NCBI GenBank assembly: GCA_003024785.1
Contig: PUQB01000099.1
Coordinates: forward strand, 1 to 64,000
DNA from: Selaginella tamariscina
Lineage: Eukaryota > Streptophyta > Lycopodiopsida > Selaginellales > Selaginellaceae
Direction: 5' to 3'
Length of the DNA stretch: 64,000 nucleotides
Position 1 is the stretch's first letter; the number at the start of each line of letters is the position of its first letter. The notes below the pieces were generated by a model. It worked only from the letters and a program-made list of their open reading frames with translations. It was not told where the DNA came from and made no database searches. Shown here in pieces: positions 6,225 through 62,045 of this stretch. Position numbers and translations under genes: made by a program.

Positions 6225-9200
6225 GACAATATGTATAATACTGGAGATAAAGTATGTCTTCTTCGGAACAACGAGATAGTTGGCACTGGAACTGTGGAAG
6301 TTCGAGATGATAATGCATCATGTCACAATATTGCCCAAGGATCTTGTGTGTACGTATGGGTGAACACCATTTCAAGCATGTTGAGGTTCCGGGAATGGAA
6401 TTTGAGGAGGGTTCTCCTGTATTGTGGAATTTGGATGAAGTCAAGGCTGACACAGAATATGCAGAGTCACAAACAAACAGTAGCACGAGTTTTCCAGATG
6501 ATGGCTTGCCTGCTGTGATGGATGAGGTGATTCTCTTTCTTCATGAGATTGAGGTTGGGAGAGGCATCATCACAGCTATAAATCCAATGGAAGCAGTGTC
6601 AGAAGAGAAACTAGGGTCCGACTTCGTGGGTGTAGTTGTGACAGAGGTTTCACCTAATGGCACATTGCATCCTGGATCCCTCGTGAGGTGGCGAACATCT
6701 GAATTAAGACGGCAAGATGGTTCAACATATTCTGGGTTGGATTTCAATAATAACAACCCGGAAGAACAACTCATATTTGAAGAGGTTCCTTGCATTGGTC
6801 CTATTGTAAGAAAAAGGCGATTCATGGGTTGCAGATCTTCCCCTGCAAGTTTCAGCAAGAGGGTGAAGATGGATCCTACATCTTCCGAAAGTGTTACGAG
6901 CATTTCCACGATTGACTGCTGCAAGAAGAAGTGTTGTCAGATGGCAGACCGGAATGAAATTACCCAATGTAGACATGTCTTTCGTACGCTCACCCAAAAG
7001 CAAAGGCATGAGTTTGTATATGCTGCACTAACTGGGTGTATTGATGGAATGGCCTCGGACACAGGTTATCAGAGTACATCCATGGTATTTAATAAGGTGG
7101 CCATCTGCTTCAAAGCTTGGTACAGTATATACGGGATCCCAAAGACCACGTTCTACCGTCGGAGGGATGAGTGGCTAGATGGAGCGCGAACCTCAGTACA
7201 TGGGAACACTCGCTTGGTCAAAACCCGCTCTCACATTATGGCAGCCATAGAGATACTCAAGGCTTTTGTGGAAGCAAATGCAGACAGGATGCCTCACAAA
7301 TGCCGAACCACAAATGCAGGGGTCAGGGAAAATCTCAAGGTTTTGCCTTGATCTACACTGTTGAAATGTGAACAAGTGCCTTGTTGATGGGGCTGCAAGC
7401 AATCTGCACTGGTACCTTCAACAACATATGGAATACTCATTTTAAGGATGTGGAGATTGCAAAACACTCTAGCTTTTCCAAGTGTGACACTTGTACATCA
7501 TTGAAGGCTGCAGAGGCTTGTGCAAAAACCTTGGTGGAGATCACTGCCATTCAAAAGAAGATGGAGGCCCACATGATTGCACAACAAACTTGCCGGTCTC
7601 AGTACTATGCACACCGCATGCTTTCTGTGTCACGCCCATCAGAGTACCTGTGCTTGATCCATGACAAGATGGATCATTCAAAGACCAGCATTCCAAAGCT
7701 CTTTGCAACACCAAAGTGCCTTGGAAATGTCATGAAACTTCCGATTTCATTGACAGGTGTGCTAACACATGGACACGGTTGTGAGTCATATGGACACTTT
7801 TCACTTCCACATTGGTCTAGCGACTCCAATTTCACTATTGGGTCGTTGGCCATGTGTTTCAGAAACCTTGAAGCCCACTCACAGACAAGTCCTATCAGTG
7901 ATCTCAAAGTGAAGAAACAACACCTTCAACCTTTACATAATGCTCTCATGAACACGTCTGCACTTGAGGCTACTTGGGAATATGAGAGGCATTGTCAGCA
8001 ACCACACAAAAAACAGATGGCCCTGTTGAGAGTTCAGGTTCAGTGGAGGGATCTAGCTCAAATAGTGTACATGTGTCCTCAACATCAAATAAGCTTCCTC
8101 GTCATTTGCTTTTACAGATGGATAATTGTGCAGGCGAGAACAAAAATAGGTAAATCATTTTACTTAAGGGTTTCTCAAGCTCATACTTACTTTTATTTTC
8201 TAGATATGTGCTAGCATACTTGTCAATGCTTGTTGCCAAAGGTGTGTTTGAAACAATCACGCTCAGTTTTCTTATGGTTGGTCACACTCATGAAGATATT
8301 GATGCGTTCTTCAGCAAGGTCTCCAACTCTACAAAAAAGGACAAGTGCACTTACCTTGCATATGATGAATCTTTTTGAAAATTGCATCTCCAAAAAAAGT
8401 TGTGCTTTGCTTGTGACTGAGGTGCCAGACTTCAAAAAATTTCTCAAGGAGTATATAAAAGAGGGAGTGATTCTTTAGTTGGTCACCTTGTGCCGCTACA
8501 ATTCTTTTTCTCCATACGAGATGGTATACCTATTATGCAGTACAAGTTACGGCCATCAGAGCAGGAGTGGTTACCGAAAGAGGGGTTAATGCTCTTCAAA
8601 AGTGGAGAGAATGGAAAGCCACTTCTCCCAGAAGGACAACCAGACCCTATTCCATTGAGTGCCCAGCTCAAGGAACAAGAGGTTATTATTGATGGCATCA
8701 AAAAATATGTGGCATGGGTTCAAAAATCGATGCCAAAGAATTCTGATAAGGCAACTGGTTACTCAGAACTATATAAGCATGTGGTCGACTATTGGGAGAC
8801 TGTTGTTCGAGAGTTGGAAGGGCCTACTGTCACAAGTACAGAATTGCAACACCCTTTTTGGCCTAAAACAAGGTGGCGAGAGGAGATTGAAATGACATCA
8901 CTGAGCACAGACGACATAGAAGCCAGTAGTGATGTGGAAGTGCAAACCCCACACTTTGTTGGACAAAGGAACCAAAAACCTAAAGCATACTTTGATTGCT
9001 GCCAGGATCTTCAAAAACTAATGATGGTTCTCATTACTCCAGATGCCTATTTGGATGGGTCAAATTATCGACACACCTGAAGTAATCACAAAAAATAGTA
9101 TTGTTAAGGTTGCATGGTTCAAACCACAAAAAAGGCGACACGAGAAGGAGAGCGAAAGATATAATGGATGCCTAGAGAAAACATGGTCTCCCAATCAAAA

Positions 9201-9315
9201 AGACCCAGCATGTTTTATAAATGTTAAATCCATTCGATATGGGTGGATGTCAAGAAGCGTTGATAAAGTCACGATTAACAAAACTGCAAGGGAATGTATG
9301 TTTTCTGAAGCTTAA
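6225..9315 (+). pseudogene. Transposase-like gene (DUF7869-like, RNase H fold), decayed
   Basis: A long but frame-broken coding region. The exon probably begins after the acceptor TTATGTGCAG (6224). The N-terminal part (GDKVCLLRNNEIVGTGTVEV) resembles the conserved domain of plant En/Spm-associated Tnp1 proteins. The middle holds a cysteine segment (FSKCDTCTSLKAA) and DKMDHSKTSIP; then MDNCAGENKNR, a 54-base GT-AG intron (8150-8203), and FLMVGHTHEDIDAFFSKVS. The spaced acidic residues in DNCAGEN and HTHEDID are what I recall of DUF7869-type transposon proteins; that name is from memory and unproven. Frame breaks occur near 6355, 7350, 7905, 8330 and 9060. C-terminal codons end at 9315 (MFSEA stop). 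Truncated copies of the last ~570 bases lie at 25850 and 61472-62045. Confidence 0.6.
8150..8203 (+). other. 54-base intron in the transposase-like gene
   Basis: Donor AG|GTAAAT and acceptor TTTTATTTTCTAG join GENKNR to YVLAYLSMLVAK in frame, with the arginine codon split across the junction. A retained spliceable intron argues that the copy came from DNA transposition, not from retrocopying. Confidence 0.7.
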
Positions 9316-9800
9316 AGCAATTACAAAATTATAAAATATCATATATTTAATATTCATAATTATTATAAACTCTTTAATAATAGTACCAAATTGTTTACTT
9401 AACTATATAAATTTAAAAAATGATATGGAAGATTGACTATATTATTATAGGATTTTATATTATATATATATTATTACTACTACAAATTTTTAATTAATAA
9501 TGTTATATTTAAATATTAATATTTTAATAACAACATCAATATTTATATAATGTACCTCTTATGCTCTTCCTTAATTGTTATATTAGGCAATATATTATAT
9601 AATTTAATACTTCTACTTTTATAATGTTATTAATTTTTGTTCAATGAATGCTATAATTTATTAAAGTTCTAAAGAATATTCTGTTTTCAAACATATATTC
9701 TAAAGAATATTCCTTTAATATTAGAAAATGCTAATTAAATAGCTAAAATTGCTAATTATTAGGAAATGGGACTATAGCCATGCCCATTTTAGTTAAACTT
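9316..9800. mobile_element. AT-rich tail of the transposase unit, copy A (first half)
   Basis: AT-rich, non-coding sequence that recurs after the transposase 3' end at 26431-26955 and, inverted, at 61040-61472. Shared landmarks are TAGTACCAAATTGTTT, ATAATGTACCTCT, TTCTAAAGAATATT and GCCCATTTTAGTTA. Similarity to the other two copies stops at about 9800 and resumes at 21616. Confidence 0.75.
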
Positions 9801-11890
9801 GCTTTTTGTTACAATCTCCTTATAATAAATTTTAACGAAGTTTACATTATCAAGATTTCAACTTGACTACAAGTTCATCAATAGTTTGCAGCCTTCTTAA
9901 CAACCTTTAGAATTAACATTGAATGCTAACTTTGTTTCCTAACCCATCTGCAAAACAAATTGTTATTTTTAGAAATGTTGTAATTCTTTCAAGCACTCAA
10001 ATGTTAAAGAAGTTTCTTCAATCACATAACACAATCACCCAACATAAATTTAGCCTTTGCTAAAGCTTGTACATTCTTGATAGTGAAATTGAAACCTTCA
10101 TTTTCAAAATTAATAAAAGCTTGTTGTATGCTACATTAATCTCATTTCAACCTTGGCCTAAAAAAAACACAATTAAAAATAAAAACATAACATTCAAGAA
10201 CATAAAAAAAACAACCTAAAACAATAGTTCAGCCAAAACCCATTTGATGAATGGATACCATGATTCATGTCCTCTTCTTCGATTAGCCTCTCTCCTTGGT
10301 CTTATCGTCATAACGTCTCTCCAAAACATCAACCTTGTACATGCAAAATGTATAGATCCCATACATATGACCTTTCATGTGACTACCACAAATCTAGAAT
10401 TGTTATTTCTTAAATAAAAAGCATGTTAGAAAAGATATATAAAAAAGAAGAAGAAACTCCAAAGAAGTCTTGTTATCTACCTTCAAAAGAATGCAACAGC
10501 CATTGTAATGCTTTGATTTGTTATTTGACTGTGCCTCTTAATACATTCCCATCAAGTCTTTTTTTGTTGTTCCCATCCAAACTCAAAAACATTTTCTTGA
10601 ATAGAAACAACCATTAAATAATTTTGATGCTATCCTCAAACTCCTTATTGACTTCAACTCAATATTTGCCCCAACCATGTATCTACTTTTCGTTGAGTAT
10701 GTATTCTCATCCAAGCTCATTCTTTTAAGAAATCACCAATTCCCCTTGTTCTCCACATATCTCATAGTCCTAAGGTTCTCATCATGCTTGTTAATCTTCT
10801 CGACCACCTTATGCACTTTCATTTGACACAAAGGGATCTTTGGTAGTGGCAAATTCATTTTACTTGCATATCATTAAACATGTAACACAACAATCCCTTT
10901 GAAACATTCCAAAAATCTCAATTTCATCACCAAGACTATCTTGTTGCACTTGCCTTCCTTCCTTAACATCAAGATGCTTTTTAGACACACTTGGATCTCC
11001 ATCACCCTTATAGGGTGTTCTTGGAATTCTATATGCAAATTGTGGGATCATGTTGTTATTGTGAGTTTCTAGATGAGATTTTGGCATATCAATAGTGTCT
11101 TCCATCTCCTAGTCACTAGAAATCACAAAGAAATTCTACAAAAAACAAAAAACAAATAATGAAAGAAAGATGATTTAACTTCAAATTGAATCGCAATAAG
11201 ATTGCCTTTAGAAGAACAAAATCTACTTCTTATCTTTGATCTAGTGGAAATGGCATGTCAAGATTCATGAGGAAACATTAAATAAGAAGACAATGCAATA
11301 AACAAATAATAAAGCTAGAAGTAACTATGGAAGACAAAGGAACTTAAAGAAGTAATGATTTTGGGAGAACCATTTAAACTTACAACAAATAAAAATGTCA
11401 ATATTATTGTAGTCTAAAATAGGATTTAAATTTATTTAATAGGAATTATTTTTTAAAAGACTTTCACTCCAAAAAAAAAACTTTAAGAAACTACTCCATT
11501 TTCCTTCATGCACCTCTCCTTTGTTGCCAGTAACCACAACATATACTTGGAATCAGAATATTCTATATATTCCTTTACCAACACGGCCCCATGTATAAGA
11601 AAAAAAGAAAATTCACATTTATCTTAATTCTCAAGGGTTTTTTGTTTACATTTATTTAACTTTTTCCTTTTAATTGTCATATAATTGACATACCCTAATG
11701 CATTAACCCTAAAGAGTCTTACATTTTAATTTTTTAATTTTTAATAAGGATTTGAGGGTTTTTATAAAATTGGGCGAGGGCCTGCAAACTAGCTAATTAA
11801 GTATTACCTCCTTAATGGCATTTTTAAATTGTATGAACTTAAGCTCTTAAAATCTTCTCAACAAGCTTTACAACTTTTCTAAAAGACTCC
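9800..11890. other. Insert: AT-rich with decayed minus-strand coding
   Basis: This begins the ~11.8-kb insert in copy A. Several short minus-strand frames (about 10220-10330, 10620-10860 and 10860-11105, the last reading PQFAYRIPRTPYKGDG) look like one protein broken by stops and shifts; I do not recognise it. Otherwise no gene, RNA or strong repeat is seen. Confidence 0.35.
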
Positions 11891-24900: not shown

Positions 24901-24904
24901 AAAC

Positions 24905-25514
24905 TACACAGAATTCAGCTTGATAATGGTTTTCATCTCCTCTCTCTTTGGCTCTCATGTTAACCCCCCTGAACATAAAGAAAATATATATTTTTTTACA
25001 TGCACAACTCACTACACACACACGCGCACACACACCACACACCACGAGGTATGTATCATGCATACAACATTGCATGTACGTACATGCCAGTGTTACGTTC
25101 GTCACTCTGGTGGCTTGATTGATCATCCTCATCAGCAGAGATGCAAACTGGTAAAAGAACATAGACAAAATAGCAAAAATTGTTTAATTAATCGTGCAAA
25201 ACAAAAATAACAATCATTAATATGTACTAATATAACATGGTTGTGATCTATATTCTTATATAATCGCATTTAAGTATACGATTAAATATATCACGTACCT
25301 TCAACTTGTTCTACCTCCGTTTGTTCAGGTTGACCTCCTTTTTGCGAGTAAAAGGTTAGAAGCTGAATTCTAATTCTAATATACATAAATTATCATTAAA
25401 AATTAATATAGAACATTATGTACCTTTTATGTCCTCAGCCTGTTTATCTCTCATTTTCTTGCTCATAACTTGACAAAGAGTTATCTGTAAACAGAATGCT
25501 ATAATATCTCGTTT

Positions 25515-25566
<52 letters not shown>

Positions 25567-25845
25567 TGAATGTATGCATCTATACAAGTACTAAACATAC
25601 CTTCAACCTTGGAAGCTCCCCTACTTATTTCTTCTTCAATTTGCTCAGCTGTATCTGCTTCCTGCAAATTATGACAAATAACTTTGACATATTATATACA
25701 TGCTATAATATATCTATAGTTGATTAGTGCGTGTCATATCTCCTGTTTACATATTACAAAACTATATGAATTTCATAATAACTTACCATCTCAAGCCTCG
25801 CAGAAAATAAGTCTCTGGTAACATCTGCCAGCTCATCTATTTTTT
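24905..25845 (-). pseudogene. 3' fragment of the 22-exon acidic-protein gene (copy in unit A)
   Basis: An inverted copy of about 57160-58241. Exons equivalent to 22, 21, 20, 19, 18 and most of 17 are present with their introns and most splice sites; for example the EADTAEQIEEEISRGASKVE exon at ~25600-25660 and the exon with QPEQTEVEQVE at ~25300-25345. The exon-19 copy has a small insertion causing a stop. Coding breaks off inside exon 17 at ~25845, exactly where unit B begins. Confidence 0.85.
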
Positions 25846-25849
25846 AATT

Positions 25850-26431
25850 TGTAATAAGGCAACTGGTTACTTAAATTTATATAAGCATGTGGTCAACTAT
25901 TAGAGACTATTGTTCGAGAGTTAAAAGGACATATTATCACAAGTATGGAATTACAACACCCTTTTTGGCCTAAAACAAAGTGACGAGAAGAGATTGAAAC
26001 AACATCAATGAGCGTAGACCACATAAAAGCTAGTAGTGATTTGGAAGTGACCCCACACTTTATTGGACAAAAAAACCAAAAACTTAAATTATACTTTGAT
26101 TACTGTAAGGATCTTCAAAAATTAATAATTATCCTCATTACTTTAGATGTGTCATATAACCTATTTGGATTGATCAAATTATCAATATTATTTGAAGTTA
26201 TTATAAAAACAATATGGTAAAGGTTGCATGGTTCAAATTACAAAATAGGCAACATAAAAAAAAAGTGAAAAGTATGATGCCTAAAGAAACATGGTCTCTT
26301 AATCATAAAGACCTAACATATTTTATAAATGTTAAATTCATTCGATATGGGTGAATGTTAAAAAGCATTAATAAGATTACAATTAACAAAATTATTAATT
26401 TTAAGAGAATGGATGTCTTCTAAAGCTTAAA
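25850..26431 (+). pseudogene. Transposase 3' fragment (unit B)
   Basis: Begins at AATAAGGCAACTGGTTAC, equivalent to position ~8745 in the transposase-like gene, and runs to its stop region with many substitutions and small deletions (ELQHPFWPKTK, then SSDLEVTPHFIGQKNQKLK readable). Copy C is cut at the same base. Confidence 0.8.
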
Positions 26432-28153
26432 ACAATTACAAAATATAATATATTTAATATTCATAATTATAATGAATTCTTTAATAATAGTACCAAATTG
26501 TTTCCTTAACTATATACATTTATAAAAAGATATGGAAGATTGCATATAGGATTTATATATATATATTATTATTAGTACAAATTATTAATTAATGTTATAT
26601 TTAAATATTAATATTTTAATAACAATATAAAATTTATATAATGTACCTCTCATGCTCTTTATAATTTATATTAGGCCCATACAATCTTAAATATAATATA
26701 TTATATAATTTAATACCTTCTACTTTTATGTTATCAATTTTTATCTACCAATGTTATAATTTATTAAAGGGTCAATTACAAAAATAGAATGTTCTAAAGA
26801 ATATTACGTTTGTAAACATATATTCTAAAGAATATTCTTTCTTTAAATTTAAAGAATATATCTTTAATATTAAATATTGCTAATTAAATTACTAAAATTG
26901 CTAATTATTAAGAAATGGGATTATAAACAATGCCCATTTTAGTTATAACATGCATTTATTCAAGATATGGTGAAATCAATTTTTTTACAATGGACAAAAA
27001 ACAACAAAATTTGATATTAATAAAAGAATTATTCAATATATTAAATAAATTAAAACCACTAGCTAATAATAAAATGTATATTTGTTAGAGAAGTATTGTT
27101 AATCAATACTACTCAAGCTCAAGTAATATTGCTTGGTACTACTCGCAGCTTAAGTAATATTGATAAGTATTACTACTTAAGGTTAAGTAGTACTAAATAA
27201 TATTACTTGAGCTTGAGTGCTAAATAATATTACTCAAGTAGTGCTAAGCAATACTATTTGAGCATAAGTAGTATTATTTGGTACTACTTGGAGCTCAAGT
27301 GATGCTATATAATACTAGTAATATTAAAAAACACATAAATTAATACAAGGCAAATTACATTTATACCTTTAAAATTTACATATTTACATATATACCCTTA
27401 GAAGTTTTATATTACATATATACCCCTTTAAAAGTTGTAAATTTATATATACCCTTGAAAAACTTCAGTTATAATATTTTAACTTTTAAAATAATAATAT
27501 TAACTAAAAATATATTTTCAATTCATAATATAAAACAAATGAAATACTTGAAGTTTATTAAGTATTAAATGTCAAAAAATTGTGAATATTTTCATTTGTG
27601 ACTTTAGTCTCAAATGTAACATTAACTTTGCAGAAAGTTCAACTAATATATATAATATTCACGAGACAAAGTGAGTAATTGTAAAGTTTTAGAACAATTA
27701 CATGTTACTTAGATAGCATATTTAATACAGGAGAGAGAGTTTTGCAAACATAGGATAAGGTATTTCAGTGTGACACTGTGTTACGGGATTACATTTATTG
27801 AACAATGTTCTTAATAAAGCATGACTATAGTTTTGTGGAAACAAGATTACACATTATTAAACAAGTATAAAATACACACACTCACACACATATAATTCAA
27901 ATTACATAAAGCTTTGAAGAGCTTATAAGTATAATAAATAATTTTCTAGCTATTATAATTTAAAATTAAGAAAAATTTATATATACTCTTAAAATTTATC
28001 ATATTTACATATATTCCTGGTTTACAATTATATTTTAATGCTTAAAATTTATTTTATAATATAATAAGTTAATAAACAATATTTGAATAAAATAAAATGA
28101 ATCATCAAGTGTTCAAGAAGAAATTACATATTTTTAAAAGTAATTTTACTATG

Positions 28154-28210
<57 letters not shown>

Positions 28211-28395
28211 ATTGATTAAAAATATATATATATTTGGTTTTAACGCATGAAATTTCAGGGTATATATTAAATTTTTCTTTAAACTGTTAAAATTATTTAA
28301 TTCCTTATATAAAACATTATACTTCAGACTGCCTCTTATACTATTTCATGTTAATTTAATTTAAATATGATCTTAACATAATATTTATTATAATT

Positions 28396-28430
<35 letters not shown>

Positions 28431-28530
28431 ACTTATCATATATAAATAATGAGCTAAGTAAAAAGAAAAAGAACAATATAAAACATAAAATACACAATAT
28501 TGTTAATAATACAATCAAAACACCTAACTA
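26432..28530 (+). mobile_element. AT-rich unit, copy B
   Basis: Collinear with copy A and inverted copy C. It lacks ~1.1 kb present in C (about 59250-60390), at a point near 27575. Contains the inverted-repeat cluster (27090-27320), successive TATACCCTTTAAAAGTT-type short repeats (27360-27460) and (TA)n at 28155-28205 and 28398-28425. Confidence 0.75.
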
Positions 28531-28534
28531 AACT

Positions 28535-28711
28535 ACACAGAAATCCAGCTTGATAATGGTTTCATCTCCTCTCTTTGGCTCCCATGTTAACCCCCCTAAA
28601 CATAAAGAAAATATATTTTTTAGTGTATGTATAAATACAAATCATATATAAAGGTGCACATAAGTATGGTCATGTGTTTTTACTTGCAAATTTACATGCA
28701 CAACTCAAAAA
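28535..28711 (-). pseudogene. Last exon fragment of the 22-exon gene (unit B)
   Basis: Inverted copy of ~58065-58241: the final exon (LTWEPKREEMKP-type reading on the minus strand), its acceptor and part of the preceding intron. It then switches without a gap to PUF-gene sequence. Confidence 0.8.
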
Positions 28712-29490
28712 CGAGCTCCGTGTTGTATGTACTGGAAATCTCGCTAAACATGCATGGGTACGTGTGTGTGTGTGTGTGTGTGTGTGAACTGTCTACACGT
28801 GATTGTCAAATGTTTCAATTGTCACACGTTTTTGTATCTGTACCTATAGTCAAGGATGCATAATGTGATGACATTCAACTGTGTATTATTACCAACATAA
28901 ATAATGTAGTGTGTCTTAATATAGAAAGCTGAGTAAGTACACGATCTTGTATAATCAAAATGTATAATAAACCTTAACAAAGCTAATTCATAAATAACCA
29001 TTAGTTCGTTCAATTTTTTAATGTTCTTTTCTGTAGAACTCGGGCTGTACAGAAACTTATCGAAACTTTGAAGTCGCCGGAGCAAGTCTGTATAATTACT
29101 AATGCTCTCAGTGTGGGGATAGTAACTCTGATTAAAGACCTTAATGGGAACCATGTTGTTCAGCGGTGCTTGCAACGCCTGAACAGCGAAGATAATCAGG
29201 TAGGCATATATATATATATTAAGAGAGAGAGAGATAACGTGCATGTTTGTGTAAGTGATCTACATTCTTGTGTTTATTAAAATAACAACAGTTGTAAGAC
29301 AACTAGTTTGGAATCTGCGTGCTTTCGTCGATGCATAATTTGCGAGTATAACGAGGAATGTTATAGATCATTTGCATATACCGTTACACGTTTTTATTTT
29401 TTCGACCTATGATGATTTATTCATCTGTTTAACGAATTCTTTAAATAATACATATGCAGAACCATTTGGTTTAGTCTAACACCTCGTTAA
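28712..29490 (+). pseudogene. PUF gene fragment (one full exon and flanks)
   Basis: Inverted copy of about 47285-48100 of the PUF gene. It includes the tail of one exon with a small rearrangement, an intron with (TG)n, and one whole exon at 29037-29199 (TRAVQKLIETLKSPEQVCII, then DLNGNHVVQRCLQRLNSEDN) with intact acceptor CTGTAG and donor CAG|GTAGGC, followed by ~290 bases of the next intron. The exon reads without stops. No promoter or downstream exon is present. Confidence 0.9.
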
Positions 29491-32010
29491 GCTAGTTTCT
29501 TAAAACTTACAATTAGTGTTAATGATTAGGTTTAGCTTTTCTTAACATACTTTAGGCATGTAAAAAACCTATTACCAACAACTTGAATCAATCTCCATTA
29601 TTGATATATTGATTTTTCTCTTTAACTCTTCACTCCTATGGAAATCCATTTTTTTAAATGTTTTATCTTAAACATATTCCCTAAATACCTTTACCAATTG
29701 TACCATTATTAGTCAAGCTTGAGAATGAACCAATGTACAAAATTACTGTTAATTTGAATTTTCAACTTTTGTATAATAATAAATTATATTAATTACTCTT
29801 TAAATGACTACTTTTAAAAGAACCCATAGAGAATTTTATTTATGTTCAAGGGACATATTGTGTCATATAGTGTTACTATATAGCTATTAGAAAGAGATGA
29901 TGTCATTAATTAATATAATACTCTAAAATATGCTTTAAGAATATTTTAATGATATAACAAATTATACCATAATAGCAAATTAACAATCCCTATATAAGAT
30001 ATGTACCGGGTACCGAGCCAAATTCTAGGTCCCACCATGTACCATGGCCATTAAGTACACATCTGGACGCCTTAGTGGGGTGTAGGAAATCAATCGGAAT
30101 CGGCCGGGTGTAGCCCTAGTAATTTATTAGCCATTAGATGTTAGGTTAACCTAGACAATTCAGATTAAATCTCTATGGATATTGTAATTAAAATGGGTAT
30201 GATTTAGAAAAATGGGAAAAAAAATAAATATTAATTAATACTTAAGTTTTAATTCTTAATTAATTATTTAATAAATATATATTGAAATTTTTTAAACATA
30301 TTTATTCTAAAGAATATTTCTTTAATATTAAAAAATATTAATTAAATATTTAAAATTGTTAATATTATTAAAAAATGAGACTATATACATACCAATTTTA
30401 ATTATAATGTGCATCTTATTTTAACACTTAAACTGTTATTGTTAGATGATATTAAATTGGAGGTTTAGATTTTAATTTGAATAAAAACTGTTTAATCGAT
30501 TCCAAAGAGGAGCTTTATTTCTATTATAAATTTAACTCCCTTGCCACAACACCAATTTCAAGATTTTAAATTTTATGATGTATAATTTAATACTAAAATT
30601 CTTATATTTAAATCATATTTATTTAATATAAATTTAGATTTGTGACTCACATATCATAAGCATGGTTTGAAGTTGTCTTACCATGCTAAAAATTATAAGA
30701 AACTTTTCCTTGCTCAACTTATTACTTTTAGTGTTTTCATTACAAAAATTTAAAAAATTACAATTGCAAAAATTAAGAAAATTATGATTCTTTTTTGACT
30801 CTTTAATTTTAATCTTATTAATTAAGTGACATTTGAGTTAACTTCACATGTCATTTTTAATAAAAGAAAATATTTCATTAACTGACACTCATGTTAAAGG
30901 GTGCCTTCAACACAGCATTAAACAATTTTATAAATAAAGAATATCCACAGTCAATTATTAATCATGACATATTAGTGAAAACATCTCATGACCTATATCA
31001 TAATTTGACATATAAATTTATATTATGTAACATCTTAGAAAGAAAAATGTTAAACCAACTCTATAGTACCTCGATTTTGAATACCACTTTTAACACCAAT
31101 GTGAAAGTTAACTTGACCAGATTGTGTTAATGTGAGAGGTTTTTAAAAAGTACTAGAGAAAATATGTTAAGAATATTTTAAATAAAGAATATAGTAAAAT
31201 CATTTTAGGTTAAAGATTTTACATTTCAGTTCAACATCAAGTGTCATATTTAACTAATTTTCTAATCGAGCGTATCTTTATAAATAAGATATAATATTCT
31301 GATTTATTTTATTCTTAATCAGTCTTAATCACGGCCTCCATATACTCTTATACCCTTTGAATTTTCATTTATTTCAAAATGAAAGTTTAAATAATCAGCG
31401 TTTATAATTAATTTGTAATTTATGGCATTGGATTTTAAAACATAAATATTGCAAATTACTAATATTTACTTTATTATAAGATAGTTTATTTATTTTTTAA
31501 TTTCATACTGTAATAAATTATATATATAGTTAATTAATATAATTATAATTTTTGTGTCATCCTCAAGACCACATCAATGTTTGTATCATTTCAATTTTAT
31601 TTTATCAATAGGTAATGTGTGATTTTGGAGTGTCTATAGAGTGTAACAAAATCAACTATAAATTGGAGCTTCATATAACTCAAATAAAAAATCCCTAAGT
31701 TTTTGTTTCACACTGTTATTGTCATATTATTAGATTATTATAAATGCTGGCTGTGACATTGACATGCAAGTCTGTCAAAATAAATTAGACATAAGAAGAT
31801 TAAGTTCGTTTAAACAGAGCCCACACGAACGTTGATATTGGTACATATGTGTGTGCGTATAAATTCCGTATTTCCTAAACTTTTTTATTTTTTTTTCTTT
31901 TTGCAAATACACATCTGAAACACACGAACAGACTGGACAACGACACTGACGCTAGCTACATAGTCATATCTGAACTCTGTTCCCTCTCTTATTGCATGTT
32001 GGATGGATTG
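29491..32010. other. AT-rich intergenic, no gene seen
   Basis: A short GC-richer tract at 30000-30120 (GTACCGGGTACCGAGCC, GGAATCGGCCGGGTGTAGCC) stands out but I cannot place it. The frame at 30891-31130 has composition like random AT-rich DNA and no recognised motif. Confidence 0.5.
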
Positions 32011-43189: not shown

Positions 43190-44101
43190 TCGTATGAAGT
43201 TATCTTTAATTCCAACACAACATATATATAATTAATAGATAAACATTAATATATATACATTTGAATATGTGAATGTATTTATATTTTATGATATATGGTT
43301 TCCTAGACCAGTAATAAATAATATTATATAAATTAAAATATATCCGTTAAAACCAGAGCTGCTTTGGGACTCAGATATAACTGTTTAATTATAAAATGCA
43401 ATTTTGTTAAAAATTCATTATCTAAAATAGCTTTAACATCGTCTTTATTTCTCTTTTATAAATTCAATACATTTTGCAAGGTAATAATCAAATTATATCA
43501 TATTAATCTAAATTAAATAGCCTTTGATATTATATAAATTAATAAAACCCAGGCATTGGATATACAAGAAAGAAAGCTATTTATAATTGTTTTAACTAAT
43601 TAAATATTTTAACTAGTGTTAACTGTTGTTCATAGTATTAACTAACTACTAGTTAGCATATAAAGTTTAATATAAAACTAAAGAATTTAACTAGTTATAA
43701 AGTATTATATAAATAAATACTTATGACTATGTTGTTTTTTAAGGAATTAATATGAATATTAATGCTTAATTTATTAATATATAAAGTTATACACACACAC
43801 ACACATACACACCTAGTATTTAATTTATTTAAACAAAAAATAAAACATTCATGTTAATTAGTTTCCTAAACATTCCTCATAAGATTAACTCTGAGCCCTT
43901 ATGTAAAGTATATTCATGACAAAATACGTTACAGGAATCATGAAGCTCTCGTTGCATGTTTTCTTGCTTGAACTAGGGCTTTTAGAAACACGTTACACAT
44001 GCATACACACAATGACTTATACGTGTCACACGCACACGCGTGGGTGATGAGTTCCACACTCGTTGTCCCCACAAGTCCGTTCTTGCTTATTCTCCGTGAT
44101 A
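43190..44101. other. Intergenic, upstream of the lipase
   Basis: AT-rich; (CA)n at 43790-43812. Short ORFs overlapping 43938-44129 are not supported. Confidence 0.45.
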
Positions 44102-45168
44102 ATGAGCAACCAGTTTCTGTTTGTACCAATGCTCTTATTACTGGTGAGTTGTGCGTGTGTAAAGTGCCAGGTTCAAGCTTGGAACAAGAACACGCTCCTT
44201 ACTTACGGCGTCTTTATAGAGGACTTTTACAACAACATGTCCCCGGCAAGACTCTCAACGCCGGGATACAGATCCGCACGCGGTCTCTTCGTAACAGGCA
44301 GAAACAGGTCGGTAAAGGTTGGTTACGTGGCAGTATCGGAGACGAGAAAGAGCATCGTGGTGGCATTGGGTGGTACGTTGCATCCCATTGAGTGGGCAAA
44401 AGACCTCGACGCTCTCCAGGTTCCGTTCCCATATAACAACCCCGACAGAAATAGCAGTCTAGCCCAGCCTCCACGTGTCCACCAAGGATTCCTCCGGTTG
44501 TACGTTGGGTCCGGTCCCAGGGCGACGAGCCTAAGACAGCAGTTACTGTTCGAGCTCGGTAAACTCCTTATTTCAAACGCGCGGTACAGTGTCACATTTG
44601 TTGGGCACAGCCTCGGGGGGGCGCTCTCGGTTCTGTCTGCATTTGATGTTGCTACAAGCAGACTGACACCAGAGCCATCGCAGATGCATGTGTATACGTT
44701 TGCATGCCCATGGTGGGTGACCGCGCATTCAAGGCGAAGTTTGAAACCTTGAATATGACCTATGAAACACTGCGCGTCTCGGATGTCCGAGACGTGGTGC
44801 CGTATCTTCCGTCCTTGCTTATGAACACGTTGGCAAGGAGCTGACGGTGGATGGATGCGTATACAGGTGTGTGTATGTGCGTGCGTGCGTGTGGTTAATA
44901 CTTATATATTTCAGATACTCCGGTGACAAGAACGCTACTACCTTTCTCAACAGAGTGACAGACTACCACAGTTTTGACAGGTGTGGGCTCAATGAAGGGA
45001 CAGATGGCAGCCATTCAAGACGAGGATTGGTTTGGGCCGTTGGATGAGGTTGAGGAGTTTGTTAAAGAGATTATGCTCTCTGCTGTTTCTTATACCGGTG
45101 ACGTTGCAAACCTTGTGATAGCAATGGAGAAGTACCAGTCCAGCTTCTCCAAGCCTTGTCAATCTTGA
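44102..45168 (+). CDS. Secreted class 3 lipase, two exons, with frameshifts
   Basis: Class 3 triacylglycerol lipase-like serine hydrolase. ATG 44102 is chosen over the in-frame ATG at 44063 because it starts a good signal peptide (MSNQFLFVPMLLLLVSCACV). Exon 1 ends at 44866 (ACAG|GTGTGT), exon 2 starts at 44915 (TATTTCAG). Seen: KVGYVAVSETRKSIVVALGG, VHQGFLRLY, nucleophile elbow FVGHSLGGALSVLSA (Ser codon 44609-44611), VYTFACP, VSDVRDVVPYLP with the likely catalytic Asp, and YEHVGKELTVDG with the likely catalytic-region His (codon 44826-44828). Three single-base shifts occur (~44717 in a G run, ~44811, ~44990). All triad regions survive, so it may be intact in reality. Converges on the PUF gene. 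Confidence 0.88.
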
Positions 45169-53252: not shown

Positions 53253-56200
53253 ATGGATAAACTGTGGTGTTGTGGAAAGAAAGTGGGAATTGCGGGAGCA
53301 GTAATGGTATATGTGTAGTTATACTTCGCAAATATATAATGATAGCATGCATGTATAATGATAATATATGCATTAATTGTATATATTTTGTTTTTTTTAG
53401 ATATCTTTGCCGGTGGTGCTACCAATTGGATTATTTTTATCCATTGTGGGAGCAACGCTTGCTGTTCCTGTTGGATCTGCGGTCGTTGGATACACCCTTC
53501 TGAAGAGAACATTCGCATCCAACGGTGATAAACAAACGAGCATATGCGGTCCACCAGCTTTTCTCTATGAACATAGAGAACCAGGTGAGATATCTGTTAG
53601 ATTAATGTAGTTAGCAGTATAATTGGTATATGTATAGATGTACGCACGTAAGTTTGTGGTGTAACAAACATATACACGTATATATACGTAGATATACATT
53701 CATATGTACTGATACGTATACATGAGTTTCTCATGATTGCAACTCCAAACAGATACACTAGACTAGTTGGTAGTGCAAATTAACTTGACTGCTCACACAT
53801 ACATATAGATTGCTATATTTTTGTATGTTATATGCGCATATATACACGTGTGCGCATGTTTTTTGATATGTATGTGTAGCTGTAGGTAATAGTGGCGGCG
53901 TACAAAGCTGTATGGAAGATCAACAACATGTGAATGAAGATCACGTCTGTAACGTGAATGCTGGTACGTCTACAGACCTAATGATGTGTATATATACGCT
54001 TTAGGTGTACATATGCACATGTATGTTTATACACATGGATGAATGGTTCTAAACTCTCTCTCCCTCTCCATTTGCAGATAATGATGGGTATGAACATGGT
54101 AATCTTAATGTGAACGAAAGCTACATCTTTAATATGAAAGCTGGTACGTATCTCTTCATGTATATATATATATATATGTCTAACTTAGTATCTTAACGTA
54201 CAATCTATTTATTACAAGGAACATATAATATTGGTCATTAGTATATTGAATATATAAGTTTCGGACGTTTATTTAACCAAGTACGAGGAATATATATATT
54301 GTGTTTAAATATATTTTATAAATCATTGTCTAATTTTATCCGTGGTACTTACGTTCGTTGTAATCGACACGTAGATTGTGACATCCAAAGTGGGCTAATT
54401 ATCCAGGACGATGTGAAATCTGGTTAGACTATCACTTTTAGAATTTAATTAACCTATATTATATTTATTTAATCTTATATCAATTTTTACTGTATTAAGT
54501 TAATTTAAATTTGATGAATGTAGATGGTGATATACAAGATTTGGAAGCTGTTAAGGCTGGCGATGACAACATCAATCGGAAAGTTGGTACGCTAGTTAAA
54601 CTTACGTATAAACACGTACCAGCTTTCACGTTAAAGATATGATCCCCATGTGTATACACCATTCATATTCACAATGTGTATTTACATTCACATGTCTGTG
54701 TGTATATAGTCAGTTAAGCTATTTAAATTAATATAAATCATTGGGTAGAATAATATTAATAGTTAAACGTAAACTTAGCACATTTTTGTAATATGATTAT
54801 GCTAACATCGTACATAACGTAAATATGAGTAGAGCATTTCTTTTTATAACAATATAAATGTGCAGTTAGAGGCGAGGAGACTTCAGGAACAGACATGGAA
54901 CATGTTAATATAAATGTTAATGCCGGTAAATGGCTATAATTAATATATAATATACTAATAGACTATTAACCGAGCTGTTATGAAAATGCAGATACAGATA
55001 ATATGCCTATGGAGGCTCCCGAGAAGGATCCCGGGAGATCCGAAGATGCTAAATCCTTGGAATATTCGGATGGAACTTTGGAATATGGTGCTGACTCTGT
55101 TCCGGAAATGCGTTGGGAGGGCCACAATGGTCTTATTAGATGGACCTGCATCGAAGAAGATAGGTGCGCATTATGTATATGTGTCTATGTACGGACCATG
55201 TGTCATTCACTCATTACGTATAGAGATACAGGTGTACCTGCTTGTTGTATGTCTATGTATATGCATATAGATGTCTCTGTTAGATATATGATTATTGGTA
55301 GTGATATGTATGACTGTATACAGGTTTTAAGGAACAGAGAGTTCTAACTTATATACTTGCTTATTAGAAAGACATAATATTATATCAATAAATATTGTAG
55401 CTACCTATAGTTTATACTTTTATTCATTGTATTTCTAGTTTGTTTTTTGTTTTGTTTTATTCTATGTGTTATTAGGTCTATGTGTTCGGGCTCACAGTGC
55501 AAACTTACACCGAACATTCAAGAGCTACTGGAGGCAAACGAAATGGAAACTGTTAATGAAGGCACAAAGGACAGTTTTATAAAGGATAGTTTGACATCTT
55601 CGCAACAGGAGCCTGGTTGGTACGCTTGTTATTTATTTTATTTCTCATTGGATTTAAGAATATATGAAATATGATTAATCGTATTCATATTTACATTGTC
55701 TGTATATATATGTTTGTAGTGCTGTGGAGGAATATGCCCATGATGATACCTCATTTGATGCGGAATGCGCTACAGAGAAGTTCTCGGAGACGTCCCAAGG
55801 TAATATACAATAATATCAAAACGTATACTAATATTTACACTAATATAATAAGATGGAGGCAATATATTGTTGGCGATTCCTGAGGACATGCCAGACCTTG
55901 TGGATGTTCCTGGTAAACACGAAGATGCTGAAGAATATACGGACGTTGGTGCTGATTCTGCCCCAGAAAAATGCTGGGATAGGCCTACAGATTTTAGTAC
56001 ATGCATGGAAGTAAACAGGTACTGTCCGCGCATGGGTGAGTGAGTGCGAGTGAAAGATAGCATAGTATGTAGTTGCTTATGTTGTGTGTGCGTGGGTGCC
56101 ATTATCACATAGCTTCATATATGGACACACACACACATGTATGAGCTATGTGGCTTAATAAAATACACACGCACTCACGCACACACACCTGTATGTATAG

Positions 56201-58241
56201 ATATGTATACAGCTATTGTATATTAGAAATGCTAAATATAGTAACTAATATATTGTATTACTAGGTGTCTCTGTCCAGGATCGCAGTGTAAAGCTACACC
56301 TGATATTCACGAGCTGCTAGAGACAAACGAGATTAAAATTACCGATGACGCTAGTTCCCCATCTTGCAACAAAAACTTGAATGGTACGCTTCTCTCTCTT
56401 ACGCACACAACCTTTTTTTGACATTTATTGTGTTTGGTTCTAATTTGTAGTGATGTGGAGGAATATGTCAAGGATAATGCCTCTTTTGGTACGGATTACT
56501 CTCCTGAGAAGACACAGGTGAAGTTTTCCGTACCTGTCAGACTAGAAGACGCTGAAGAAGAAATTCCTTCAAGCTGTCAATGCAAAGCTGCGTTAGATTA
56601 TAACGAGCTCATTGAGGCTGAGCAAATGCTTCAAGGTAATGTGTGTGTGCGCGCGCGCGCGTGTGTAGACACACATGTGTGTATAGTATATAAAAATGTA
56701 ATTTAACTTTAGACTATAATTTTTCATTTTACTAGAGGTCGAACATATTAACTTGGTCGAAGATGATGCCTTAATTGTGCATAACATGATATGTTATTGC
56801 TTTTCCTTTTACATAATATATGTTTTATTTTAATGCATTTTATATTATTTAATCGTCATTTTTATTTAGGAGATGAATATACCAGCTTGGTTGAAGACGA
56901 TCAATATGTAGAGGGGGAAGGTAATTATTTACATTAGAGTTTTATATAATTCTTTTGTTTATTTAATGCTCTTTATTAGAGGAGGAGATTGAATTGGCTG
57001 AAGAAGATGCTATAGAAGATTCAGGTGGGTGTGGATGTGTGCGAGACAAACATACAAACACAATATTGTTAATGTTAGTGATATATGTGCACTCTTGTGT
57101 GTGTGTGTCTGTGTCTGTGTGTGTGTTTACTTTATTGTTTAATTTATTTTTTCCAGGAGAGGAGGATGCTGAAAAAATAGATGAGCTGGCAGATGTTACG
57201 AAAGACTTATTTTCTGCGAGGCTTGAGATGGTAAGTTATTATGAAATTCATATAGTTTTGTAATATGTAAACAGGAGATATAACTATAGATATGTTATAG
57301 CATGTATATGATATGTCAAAGTTTATTTGTCATAATTTGCAGGAAGCAGATACAGCTGAGCAAATTGAAGAAGAAATAAGTAGGGGAGCTTCCAAGGTTG
57401 AAGGTATGTTAATATTTCAAGTACTTGTATAGATGCATACATTCTCTCTCTCTCTCTCTCTCTATAAATATATAACGAGATATTATAGCATTCTGTTTGC
57501 AGATAACTCTTTGTCAAGTTCTGAACAAGAAAATGAGGATAAACAGGCTAAGGACATAAAAGGTACATAATGTTTTATATTAATTTTTAATGATAATTTA
57601 ATTATAAAGTACATTTTCATATACATAATAACCATTATGTATGTCGTTTTGAAAAATTAATTAGAATTAGAATTCAGCTTCTAACCTTTTACTCGCAAAA
57701 AGGAGGTCAACCTGAACAAACGGAGGTAGAACAAGTTGAAGGTACGTGATATATTTAATCATATACTTAGTTTGTTGAGAAAGTATATAACACCTATGCA
57801 TCATGCGATTATGTAAGAATATAGATCACTAACCATGAGTACATATTAATAATTGTTATTTTTGTTTTACACGATTAATTAAACAATTTTTGCTATTTTT
57901 GTCTATGTTCTTCTTTCACCAGTTTGCATCTCTGCTGATGAGGACGATCAATCAAGCCACCAGAGTGACGAACATAACACTGGTATGTACGTGCAATGTT
58001 GTATGCATGATACATACCTTGTGTGTATGTGTGTGTGTGTGTGGGTGTCTGTTTGAGTTGTGCATGTAAATTTTGAAGTGTAAAAACACATGACCATACT
58101 TATGTGCATTATATATTCCTTTATATATTTATACATAACACCAAATAAATAAAAAATATATTTTCTTTATGTTTAGGGGGGTTAACATGGGAGCCAAAGA
58201 GAGAGGAGATGAAACCATTATCAAGCTGGATTTCTGTGTAG
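53253..58241 (+). CDS. Acidic, membrane-anchored protein built from ~22 small exons
   Basis: No family recognised. Exons: 53253-53306, 53401-53584, 53880-53963, 54078-54143, 54375-54422, 54524-54586, 54866-54925, 54992-55163, 55476-55619, 55720-55799, 55853-56018, 56265-56383, 56451-56635, (56736-~56775 doubtful), 56870-56920, 56980-57024, 57157-57230, 57343-57403, 57503-57562, 57703-57741, 57923-57982, 58177-58241. Start MDKLWCCGKKVGIAGAVM, then a long hydrophobic stretch (SLPVVLPIGLFLSIVGATLA and VPVGSAVVGYTLL), probably one or two membrane helices. The rest (~550 residues) is highly acidic. Two homologous exon sets encode SQCKLTPNIQELLEANE and SQCKATPDIHELLETNE, each followed by VEEYAHDDTSF or VEEYVKDNASF. 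End: LTWEPKREEMKPLSSWISV stop. Exons 3-7, 15, 16 and 19-21 are multiples of three with phase-1 ends. One base is out of phase at exons 12/13. Confidence 0.8.
56736..56775 (+). other. Degenerate exon without a usable donor
   Basis: Acceptor TTTTACTAG opens EVEHINLVEDDALIV, clearly related to the next exon (GDEYTSLVEDDQYVEG), but no GT donor occurs at the matching phase. Skipping it keeps exons 13 and 15 in phase, so it is probably a dead duplicate. Confidence 0.5.
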
Positions 58242-61200
58242 TTTCAATTGTATTATTACAATATTGTGTATTTTATGTTTTATATTTGTTCTTTTTCTTT
58301 TTACTTAGCTCATATTTATACATGTATATAAGCATAATAATATATATATTTGAATTATAATAAATATTATGTTAAGATCATATTTAAATTAAATTAACAT
58401 GAAATAGTATAACAGGCAGTAAGAAGTATAATGTTTTATATAAGGCATTAAATGATTTTAACAGTTTTAAGGAAAATTTAATATAACACCCCTGAAATTT
58501 CATGCGTTAAAACCAAATATATATATATTTTTAAAATCAATACAAAAATATATAAATATAAATAATATATATATATATATATATTATAACATAGTAAAAT
58601 TACTTTTAAAATATGTAATTTCTTAACATTCTGTATTATGATCTTTTTTGACCTTGAACACTTGATGATCTTCATTTTATTTTATTCAAATATTGTTATT
58701 AACTTTATATATATATATATATTTGTAAACATTAAAATATAATTGGTATACATTACACAGGTATATTTGTAAACCAGGAATATATGTAAATATGATAAAG
58801 TTTAGGAGTATATATAAATTTTTCTTAATTTTAAATTATAATAGCTAGAAAATTATTTATTATACTTATAAGCTCTTCAAAGCTCTATGTAATTTGAAAT
58901 ATATGTGTGTGAGTGTGTGTAAATAAATTAATTCAAATTAATTTATTTACTTATTTTATACTTGTATACTTTGTATTTTATACTCGTTTAATAATGTATA
59001 ATTTTGTTCCACAAAACTATAGTCATGCTTTATTAAGAACATTGTTCAATAAATAATCCTGTAACACATAGTGTCATATTGAAGTACCCTATCTTATGTT
59101 TGTAAAAATCTCTCTTCTTTATTAAATATGCTGATTGTTCTAAAATTCTATAATTACCCACTTCGTCTCGTGAATATTATATATATTAGTTGAACTTTCT
59201 GCAAAGTTAATGTTACATTTGAGACTAAAGTCACGAATGAAAATATTCACATTTACATATTTTAAACGGTGTGTGTTTTGAGATCTCTATAGCAAATTCA
59301 TGTTTAAAAGCTTCTTGATTAACATCAAGAATATATGTTTATCTCCTCTTTGAACTATACTACATCTCTTGGATATTAAGTCAATGACTGTTAATATTTA
59401 TTACATTGACTTCCCACCTTGAAAATCCTTATACCAAGCGCTTCTACAAGATCATCATAAAGTGCCTCTACAAGATCATTATAACAAACATCATATAAGC
59501 TAGTGTAGGACTTAGAGAGCCTTTTATAACTAACAATACTATATTTTATTTTTACATGATTTATTTTTGGGATCTAAGTAGCTTTTATAAACATTTTCCC
59601 CTACATAAATTAAAGAAGTGTTGGTGAATACTGTGAATAGGAAATTATTTCTTACCTTGTTTATAAAGTTTCTTAATTAGAAACTCTTGCATTCCATCAT
59701 AACACAAGCTTAGGTACTTTAAATTTGAGGAACTTAACCTTCCTTTCCTATATTTTTCTTCACTAGTTGTTCAGTTTGATCTAGAACATGAATTATGCAA
59801 TAACATCTTCAACTTTGAATTCGTAAGTAACTATGGTAACAATAATTTTCAATTTAAAATTTTAATTATATATTAAATATTTGTATAAACTATGATAATA
59901 AACACACATCGTTACCCAATTTTTATTATATGAACTCAAACTTCCTTTAAATCTTTTCACGATTGTATTTTTCTTATTAGATCTATTACATTTCTAAGTC
60001 TTTTTGTTAACATTTTGATTACAACACACTTCTCCTTTGTTAAATCAATCAACTGATATATAAATTGAAATCCTTGAAGATATATAATGTTAAAAAGTTC
60101 TTTTTTATTTCATCTTATGTCTTATTAAATGTTGTACACCCACTTTTTTAACATGCAAGATCACAATTATTTTGAAATATTCCACTTGGAACTCAAAATG
60201 TATTAAGGGAAAATAACTTCAATTTAAAACTTCATAAATTTTAAAATTAAAAATTAAAAAACATTTTAAAAATCAATAAAAATTTATAATTAATTTGTTT
60301 TTTATTATAATTAAGTCCAAAATACAACCTATTAAACATATATATTACAATATAATATAATTATTTTTAAAAATATTCTATTTTTTATTATGACAATTTT
60401 TTGACATTTAACACTGAATAAACTTCAAGTATTTCATTTGTTTTATATTATGAATTGAAAATATATTTTTAGTTAAAATTGTTATTTTAAAAGTTAAAAT
60501 ATTATAATTGAAGTTTTTCAAGGGTATATATGTAAATTTATAACTTTTAAAGGGTATATATGTAATATAAAACTTTTAGGGGTATATATGTAAATATGTA
60601 AATTTTAAAGGTATAAATGTAATTTTACCTTATATTAATTTATGTGTTTTTCAATATTACTAGTATTACATAGCATCACTTGAGCTCCAAGTAGTACCAA
60701 ATAATACTATTTATGTTCAAATAGTATTGCTTAGCACTACTTGAGTAATATTATCTAGCACTCAAGCTCAAGTAGTATTATTTAGTACTATCTCAAGCTC
60801 AAGTAGTAATACTTATCGATATTATTTAAGCTGCTAGTAGTACCAAGCAATATTACATGAGCTTGAGTAGTATTGGTTAGTAATACTTCTCTAATAAATA
60901 TACATTTTTATTATTAGCTAGTGGTTTTAATTTATTTAACATATTGAATAATTCTTCTGTTAATAGCAAATTTTGTTGATTTTTGTCCATTGTAAAAAAA
61001 TTTGATTTCACCATATCTTGAATAAATGCATGTTGTAACTAAAATGGGCATTGCTTATAATCCAATTTCTTAATAATTAACAATTTTAGTGATTTAATTA
61101 GCAATATTAATATTAAAGATATATTCCTTAAATTTAAACAAATAATATTTTTTAGAATATATGTTTACAAACATAATATTCTTTAGAACATGGTATTAAG

Positions 61201-61471
61201 TTATATAATATATTATATTTAAAATTGTATGGGCCTAATATAAATGTTATAAAGAGCATGAGAGGTACATTATATAAACATTTATATTGTTATTAAAATA
61301 CTAATATTTAAATAAAACATTAATTAATAATTTGTACTAAAAATCCTATATGCAATCTTCCATATCTTTTTATAAATGTATATAGTTAAGGAAACAATTT
61401 GGTATTATTATTAAAGAGTTCATTATAATTATGAATATTAAATATATTATATTTTGTAATTGTTTTAAGCT
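58242..61471 (-). mobile_element. AT-rich unit, copy C (inverted)
   Basis: Inverted and collinear with copies A and B: the landmarks TTCTAGCTATTATA (58845), the inverted-repeat cluster (60660-60890), and GGGTATATATGTAA-type repeats (60520-60600) occur in reverse order. Starts directly after the stop codon of the 22-exon gene, which may use it as 3' UTR. No coding. Confidence 0.75.
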
Positions 61472-62045
61472 TCAGAAGACATTCATTCTCTTACAATTAA
61501 CAATTTTGTTAATTGTAACTTTATTAATGCTTCTTGACGTTCACCCATATTGAATGGATTTAACATTTATAAAACATGTTAGGTCTTTATAATTAGGAGA
61601 CCATGTTTTCTTTAAGCATCATACCTTTCACTTTTTTTTTCATGTTGTCTTTTTTGTAATTTGAACCATGCAACATTTATCATATTGTTTTTATAATAAC
61701 TTCAAATATATTGATAATTTGACCAATCCAAATAGGTTATATGACACATCTGAAGTAACGAGGATGATTATTAATTTTTGAAGATCCTTACGGTAATCAA
61801 AGTATGATTTAGGTTTCTGGTTCTTTTGTTCAACAAAGTGTAGGTCACTTCCACATCACTACTAGTTTTTATGTCGTCTACGCTCATTGATATCGTTTCA
61901 ATCTCCTCCCGCCACTTTGTTTTAGGCTAAAAAGGGTGTTGTAATTCTGTACTTGTGACAACAGGTTCTTTTAACTCTCGAACAACAGTCTCCCAATAGT
62001 TGACCACATGCTTATATAGATCTAAGTAACCAGTTGCCTTATTAC
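61472..62045 (-). pseudogene. Transposase 3' fragment (unit C)
   Basis: Minus-strand copy of the last ~570 bases of the 6225-9315 gene, ending at CCAGTTGCCTTATTAC (62030-62045), the same cut point as unit B. Many stops. Confidence 0.8.

Follow-up and report, generated by a model that had tools for sequence, protein, structure and literature searches.

Anatomy of the gene and its product

The window, a stretch of 64,000 nucleotides of Selaginella tamariscina DNA (C1381:1-64000), carries on its forward strand a gene model of 21 exons at 53253-58241, built by reading the sequence. E1 (53253..53306) holds the start codon (MDKLWCCGKKVGIAGAVM), and E2 (53401..53584) encodes a hydrophobic segment, from residue 19 onward, and ends in phase 1. 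Five exons bounded at each end by a phase-1 intron ('phase 1-1') follow: E3 (53880..53963, 84 nt, acidic), E4 (54078..54143, 66 nt), E5 (54375..54422, 48 nt), E6 (54524..54586, 63 nt) and E7 (54866..54925, 60 nt). Two groups of three exons, designated 'cassettes', come next. Cassette 1 (54992..55799) comprises E8 (54992-55163, phase 1-2), E9 (55476-55619, phase 2-2) and E10 (55720-55799, phase 2-1); cassette 2 (55853..56635) comprises E11 (55853-56018), E12 (56265-56383) and E13 (56451-56635). The 3' part contains E14 (56870-56920, 51 nt) and E15 (56980-57024, 45 nt), both phase 1-1, E16 (57157-57230, phase 1-0), E17 (57343-57403, phase 0-1), three further phase 1-1 exons, E18 (57503-57562, 60 nt), E19 (57703-57741, 39 nt) and E20 (57923-57982, 60 nt), and the last exon, E21 (58177..58241), with TAG at its end.

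AG precedes each of E2 to E21 and GT follows each of E1 to E20; the polypyrimidine tracts of E11 and E19 are poor, as judged by eye. The GC content is 43.7% in exons versus 28.5% in introns. If segments matching the exons in length and phase are drawn at random from the window, the probability that all are open is about 10^-14.5, an optimistic figure, since the exons had been picked for being open. Phase 1 accounts for about 22% of plant introns. Here, 14 of the 20 introns are in phase 1, four in phase 2 and two in phase 0, an excess of phase 1 with P = 6e-6 at a 22% background and 8e-4 at 33%, in which duplicated exons are counted though they are not independent events. Of the 19 internal exons, twelve carry the same phase at both ends and so are symmetric (P = 0.007 against an expectation of 1/3): ten are phase 1-1 and two, E9 and E12, phase 2-2. 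The ten exon lengths listed in a preliminary description of this DNA proved exact, in place and with AG/GT borders, and once the frame was fixed all ten were phase 1-1. Its numbering implied 22 exons, one more than the 21 found; its 'exon 14' probably corresponds to 56736-56792, whose inclusion in the transcript model brings a stop at residue 495.

A search of the plant's own assembly (300.7 Mb, 1391 contigs) found the same gene on a second contig, C637. E12 is 119 nt long in the window, so that the frame is lost into E13, versus 120 nt in C637; with the latter E12, a single frame runs across the 21 exons. The resulting protein has 626 amino acids, a pI of 4.08 and 23% D/E. Its N-terminus is basic and hydrophobic and the remainder acidic, each of E3 to E20 being net negative. 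The acidic modules behind a hydrophobic N-terminus that had been proposed earlier were thus recovered, with net charges of -2 to -8 for the ten phase 1-1 exons. In 19-residue windows, hydropathy peaks at 2.46 (residues 16-34), and windows above 1.6 begin at residues 9-31, 33 and 34. For E2 alone, a single-sequence structure model predicted one helix (mean pLDDT 69). The basic hydrophobic N-terminus is probably a membrane anchor and the long acidic tail is probably disordered; functionally, the tail would probably form a flexible charged region at the membrane.

No Pfam domain matched the 626 residues above its curated cut-off (best TORC_M, E = 0.023), and a PDB sequence search with the same query gave nothing convincing (best uS17m, E = 0.003, confined to residues 403-499, which are acidic). 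NCBIfam, queried with the first 406 residues, returned zero matches, and IMG/VR zero relatives of E8-E12. In the own-genome searches, only the best first-look candidates were scored, and E3-E7 and E13-E15 did not serve as separate queries. Within these bounds, E1-E2 and E8-E12 had no match beyond this locus and C637, and E16-E20 matched only here, in C637 and in one broken local duplicate (40 scored of 397 first-look candidates). A topic-based, not sequence-based, literature search yielded no publication recognised as treating this gene. We call it an 'orphan' in the sense that it is matchless in its own genome, Pfam, PDB, NCBIfam and IMG/VR as searched.

The local duplicate (24904..25845, reverse strand) is a degenerate copy of the 3' end, from part of E16 to E21, and lies within an inverted duplication. 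It is broken by small indels and by a GT-to-GC donor change after E20. Gaps aside, it departs from the gene at 9 of 343 positions in exons and 34 of 546 in introns. A second local duplicate (27578..28709, reverse strand) contains E21 and downstream DNA and matches 58052-59254; the DNA downstream of about 58.5 kb is repetitive. On a further contig, C158:56561-56752 is a 75% copy of E21 and the DNA that follows (58170-58377). It was rejected as a distant relative of the gene: only E21 and downstream DNA match, and a tblastn search of C158:46000-60000 with all 21 exon peptides gave nothing below E = 0.05.

Duplicated exons

Homology between exons was assessed on all 231 exon pairs, with 200 shuffles per pair. 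The highest scores were those of E9/E12 (z = 20), E8/E11 (z = 9.8) and E10/E13 (z = 6.1), each reached by none of the 200 shuffles. The alignments point clearly to duplication of a three-exon cassette, E8-E10 and E11-E13, both copies running from phase 1 to phase 1 and matching in phase at both ends. E3, E4 and E7, which have a short motif in common, are likely to be duplicates of one another as well (z = 4.6-5.0; scores reached by 0, 0 and 1 of 200 shuffles for E4/E7, E3/E7 and E3/E4). The suggestion that the gene had grown by exon duplication is therefore sustained for E9/E12, E8/E11 and E10/E13, and probably for E3/E4/E7. In addition, the second half of E13 (EDAEEEIPSSCQCKAALDYNELIEAE) scored z = 5.4 against E12 and z = 4.7 against E9 (1 of 200 shuffles each), and resembles what a third cassette copy might look like if fused without introns.

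Between cassettes 1 and 2, dN was 0.37 and dS 0.70 over 106 codons (bootstrap pN/pS 0.45-0.93), values obtained from a protein-guided alignment that is biased toward low dN. For E10/E13 alone, dN exceeded dS over 19 codons.

The stretch ahead of E14 mentioned above (56736..56792, forward strand) is exon-like: it is 57 nt long, encodes residues like those of E14 and ends at a weak donor, AT|GTTATT. It was the best hit when the 20 introns were scanned for decayed exons, with a score of 33; scores of 33 or more occurred in 3 of 40 shuffled intron sets, so that its reading as a relic leans mainly on its place, its phase and its likeness to E14. On these grounds, it may be a decayed exon, and it lends growth by duplication weaker support than the exon pairs do.

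Tandem copying of a phase 1-1 exon, or of a whole cassette running from phase 1 to phase 1, would leave the frame intact and so could let the gene grow. At the phase-1 borders, moreover, the split codon starts with G and hence is never a stop. We favour the reading, with a probability of about 0.72, that this is a gene of some 626 residues, single-copy in the parts searched, which grew by duplication of symmetric exons; most of its exons are probably included constantly. If expressed as modelled, it would show plainly that a plant gene can be lengthened when symmetric phase-1 exons are duplicated; its exon copies would differ in age, one of them perhaps decaying. For now it is chiefly an orphan gene, with small exons that gene predictors may overlook.

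Differences between the two contigs

C1381 and C637 are collinear from 37.4 kb of the window to beyond the window's end; C1381 37383-71629 corresponds to C637:624-35405, one locus in two contigs. In the gene region they differ mostly by small indels. Apart from the difference in E12, C637 has lost one base in each of E5, E6 and E14 and gained two in E18. No substitution was found in 1877 aligned CDS bases. The introns have 7 in 3094 (Fisher P = 0.05) and the flanks 153 in 24105 (P = 2e-5), the flank count being perhaps inflated by repeats lying there. A MAFFT alignment placed three mismatches around the two-base indel of E18, versus none in the other alignment. Outside the gene, over 37383-66924, the 24105 aligned bases contain 312 indels besides the 153 substitutions. 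The two contigs probably represent haplotypes that were left uncollapsed and contain numerous small indel errors. Since the CDS is free of substitutions while the flanks carry so many, the gene is probably real, as far as this comparison of contigs can tell.

Three neighbouring genes or gene pieces were recognised: a GH18 piece (32.7-33.2 kb, reverse strand), class-II DAHP synthase exons (37.8-39.8 kb, reverse strand; Pfam, with matches in the PDB as well) and a Lipase_3 ORF (44051-44749; Pfam), whose best PDB matches are phospholipase A1. Conserved CDS stretches nearby resembled the gene in this respect, with 0 substitutions in 2858 bases when the lipase ORF is excluded. The 693 bases of the lipase ORF differed more than its neighbours did, by 9 substitutions and 12 indels. 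Four of the DAHP synthase exons had 10 indels and 0 substitutions in 1106 bases, one of the four being free of indels. Because these exons differ in the same manner, by indels without substitutions, the indels of our gene are read as probable assembly errors, a decaying allele being the less likely alternative.

The same data bear on the possibility that the locus is a recently dying pseudogene, whose small indels are real and whose duplicated cassettes are relics. The frame broken at E12 in the window, the six CDS indels between contigs and the decayed exon-like stretch ahead of E14 are all compatible with it. However, a CDS without substitutions does not favour decay, the frame is open with the E12 of C637, and the CDS has 3.2 indels per kb, fewer than the 7.0 per kb of the other CDS stretches (where 12 of the 25 indels sit in the lipase ORF). 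We consider a pseudogene unlikely.

Possible exon skipping, known systems and transposon-like neighbours

The preliminary description had stressed that the phase 1-1 exons can be skipped without change of frame. As arithmetic this is correct: all 1024 computed skip combinations of the ten exons remain in frame and open, and the frame also stays open when cassette E8-E10, cassette E11-E13 or both are dropped, while each of the seven internal exons that are asymmetric brings a premature stop when dropped. Such neutrality follows from the phase and from split codons that begin with G, and indicates possibility, not proof of use. It could be taken to mean that the gene is a variant generator in the manner of the schistosome micro-exon genes (MEGs), its phase 1-1 exons being skipped or included combinatorially to yield many acidic variants from one gene; the anchor-like N-terminal segment and the asymmetric exons that cannot be skipped without a stop fit this picture. 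Yet symmetric exons are expected from exon duplication anyway, and no second gene of this type emerged from the own-genome search with E1-E2 or E8-E12.

The comparison with MEGs themselves is also unfavourable. MEG products are secreted or membrane-anchored, and differential splicing gives rise to their variants. The likeness lies in short symmetric exons and a hydrophobic N-terminus, present in both. MEGs, as described in PMC5825161, have symmetric exons of 6-36 bp that make up about 80% of the CDS, whereas the ten phase 1-1 exons here measure 39-84 nt and occupy 576 of 1881 CDS bases (31%). None of the 21 exons is 36 nt or shorter, so the gene does not belong with the MEGs as that source defines them, and the analogy drawn earlier fails on both exon size and CDS share. 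A variant generator of this sort would seem quite unlikely. Likewise quite unlikely is the fuller proposal of a plant counterpart of the micro-exon genes, in which ten frame-neutral exons and two removable cassettes would give many membrane-anchored acidic isoforms, with exon birth by duplication and exon death, as in the putative relic ahead of E14, ongoing. If the exons were also skipped, the gene would represent MEG-style variation in a plant.

Aphid bicycle genes form a family, whereas own-genome searches with E1-E2 or E8-E12 brought up no further gene of the present kind. Bicycle genes carry CYC motifs. They resemble the present gene in having many small internal exons in one phase, with about 17 exons on average versus 21 here (PMC9168663). 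According to the same source, codon position 2 is where nearly all their internal exons begin. In the present gene this applies to 13 of the 19, those preceded by a phase-1 intron, and the gene was not assigned to the bicycle genes.

A survey of micro-exons in rice (PMC6600660) used a limit of 51 nt or less, within which fall 4 of the 21 exons here. The small symmetric exons of the preliminary description stand, but to call the gene assembled from micro-exons was an overstatement, considering this count and the 31% share of the CDS. The words 'symmetric' and 'consecutive' are absent from the main text of the survey (PMC6600660), and the duplicated run of same-phase exons seen here is a different pattern. 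The likeness to MEGs and bicycle genes is architectural, and is most simply explained by symmetric-exon duplication.

Transposon-like ORFs occur in the window at 6314-9077 (forward), 61024-62042 (reverse) and 25854-26957, with a weak match to DUF7869 (E = 1.4e-5, just under the Pfam cut-off). Their C-terminal part showed 93-100% protein identity among 150 scored of 5463 first-look candidates; this DUF7869-type transposon is very abundant and, by the sameness of its copies, would appear to be recently active. That the gene is cargo of this transposon, whose 3' end adjoins it, is highly improbable and largely refuted: 61024-62042 does match, in opposite orientation, the 3' part (8746-9806) of the transposon ORF, and the pairing of gene and transposon is seen again at 21.6-28.7 kb, but the latter is an inverted copy of the same region, the transposon piece and the downstream DNA are repetitive while E16-E20, with 40 of 397 first-look candidates scored, are not, and the C158 copy of E21 with downstream DNA has no other exon within 14 kb.

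The inverted copy is part of a larger structure, in which positions 1-29520 repeat C1381 47288-64979 in inverted orientation, with rearrangements and in degenerate form. A Pumilio piece, with repeats assigned by Pfam on the right copy, is 95% identical between 28716-29520 and 48103-47288, compared to about 66-88% for the other matching pieces; its higher identity perhaps reflects a later conversion.
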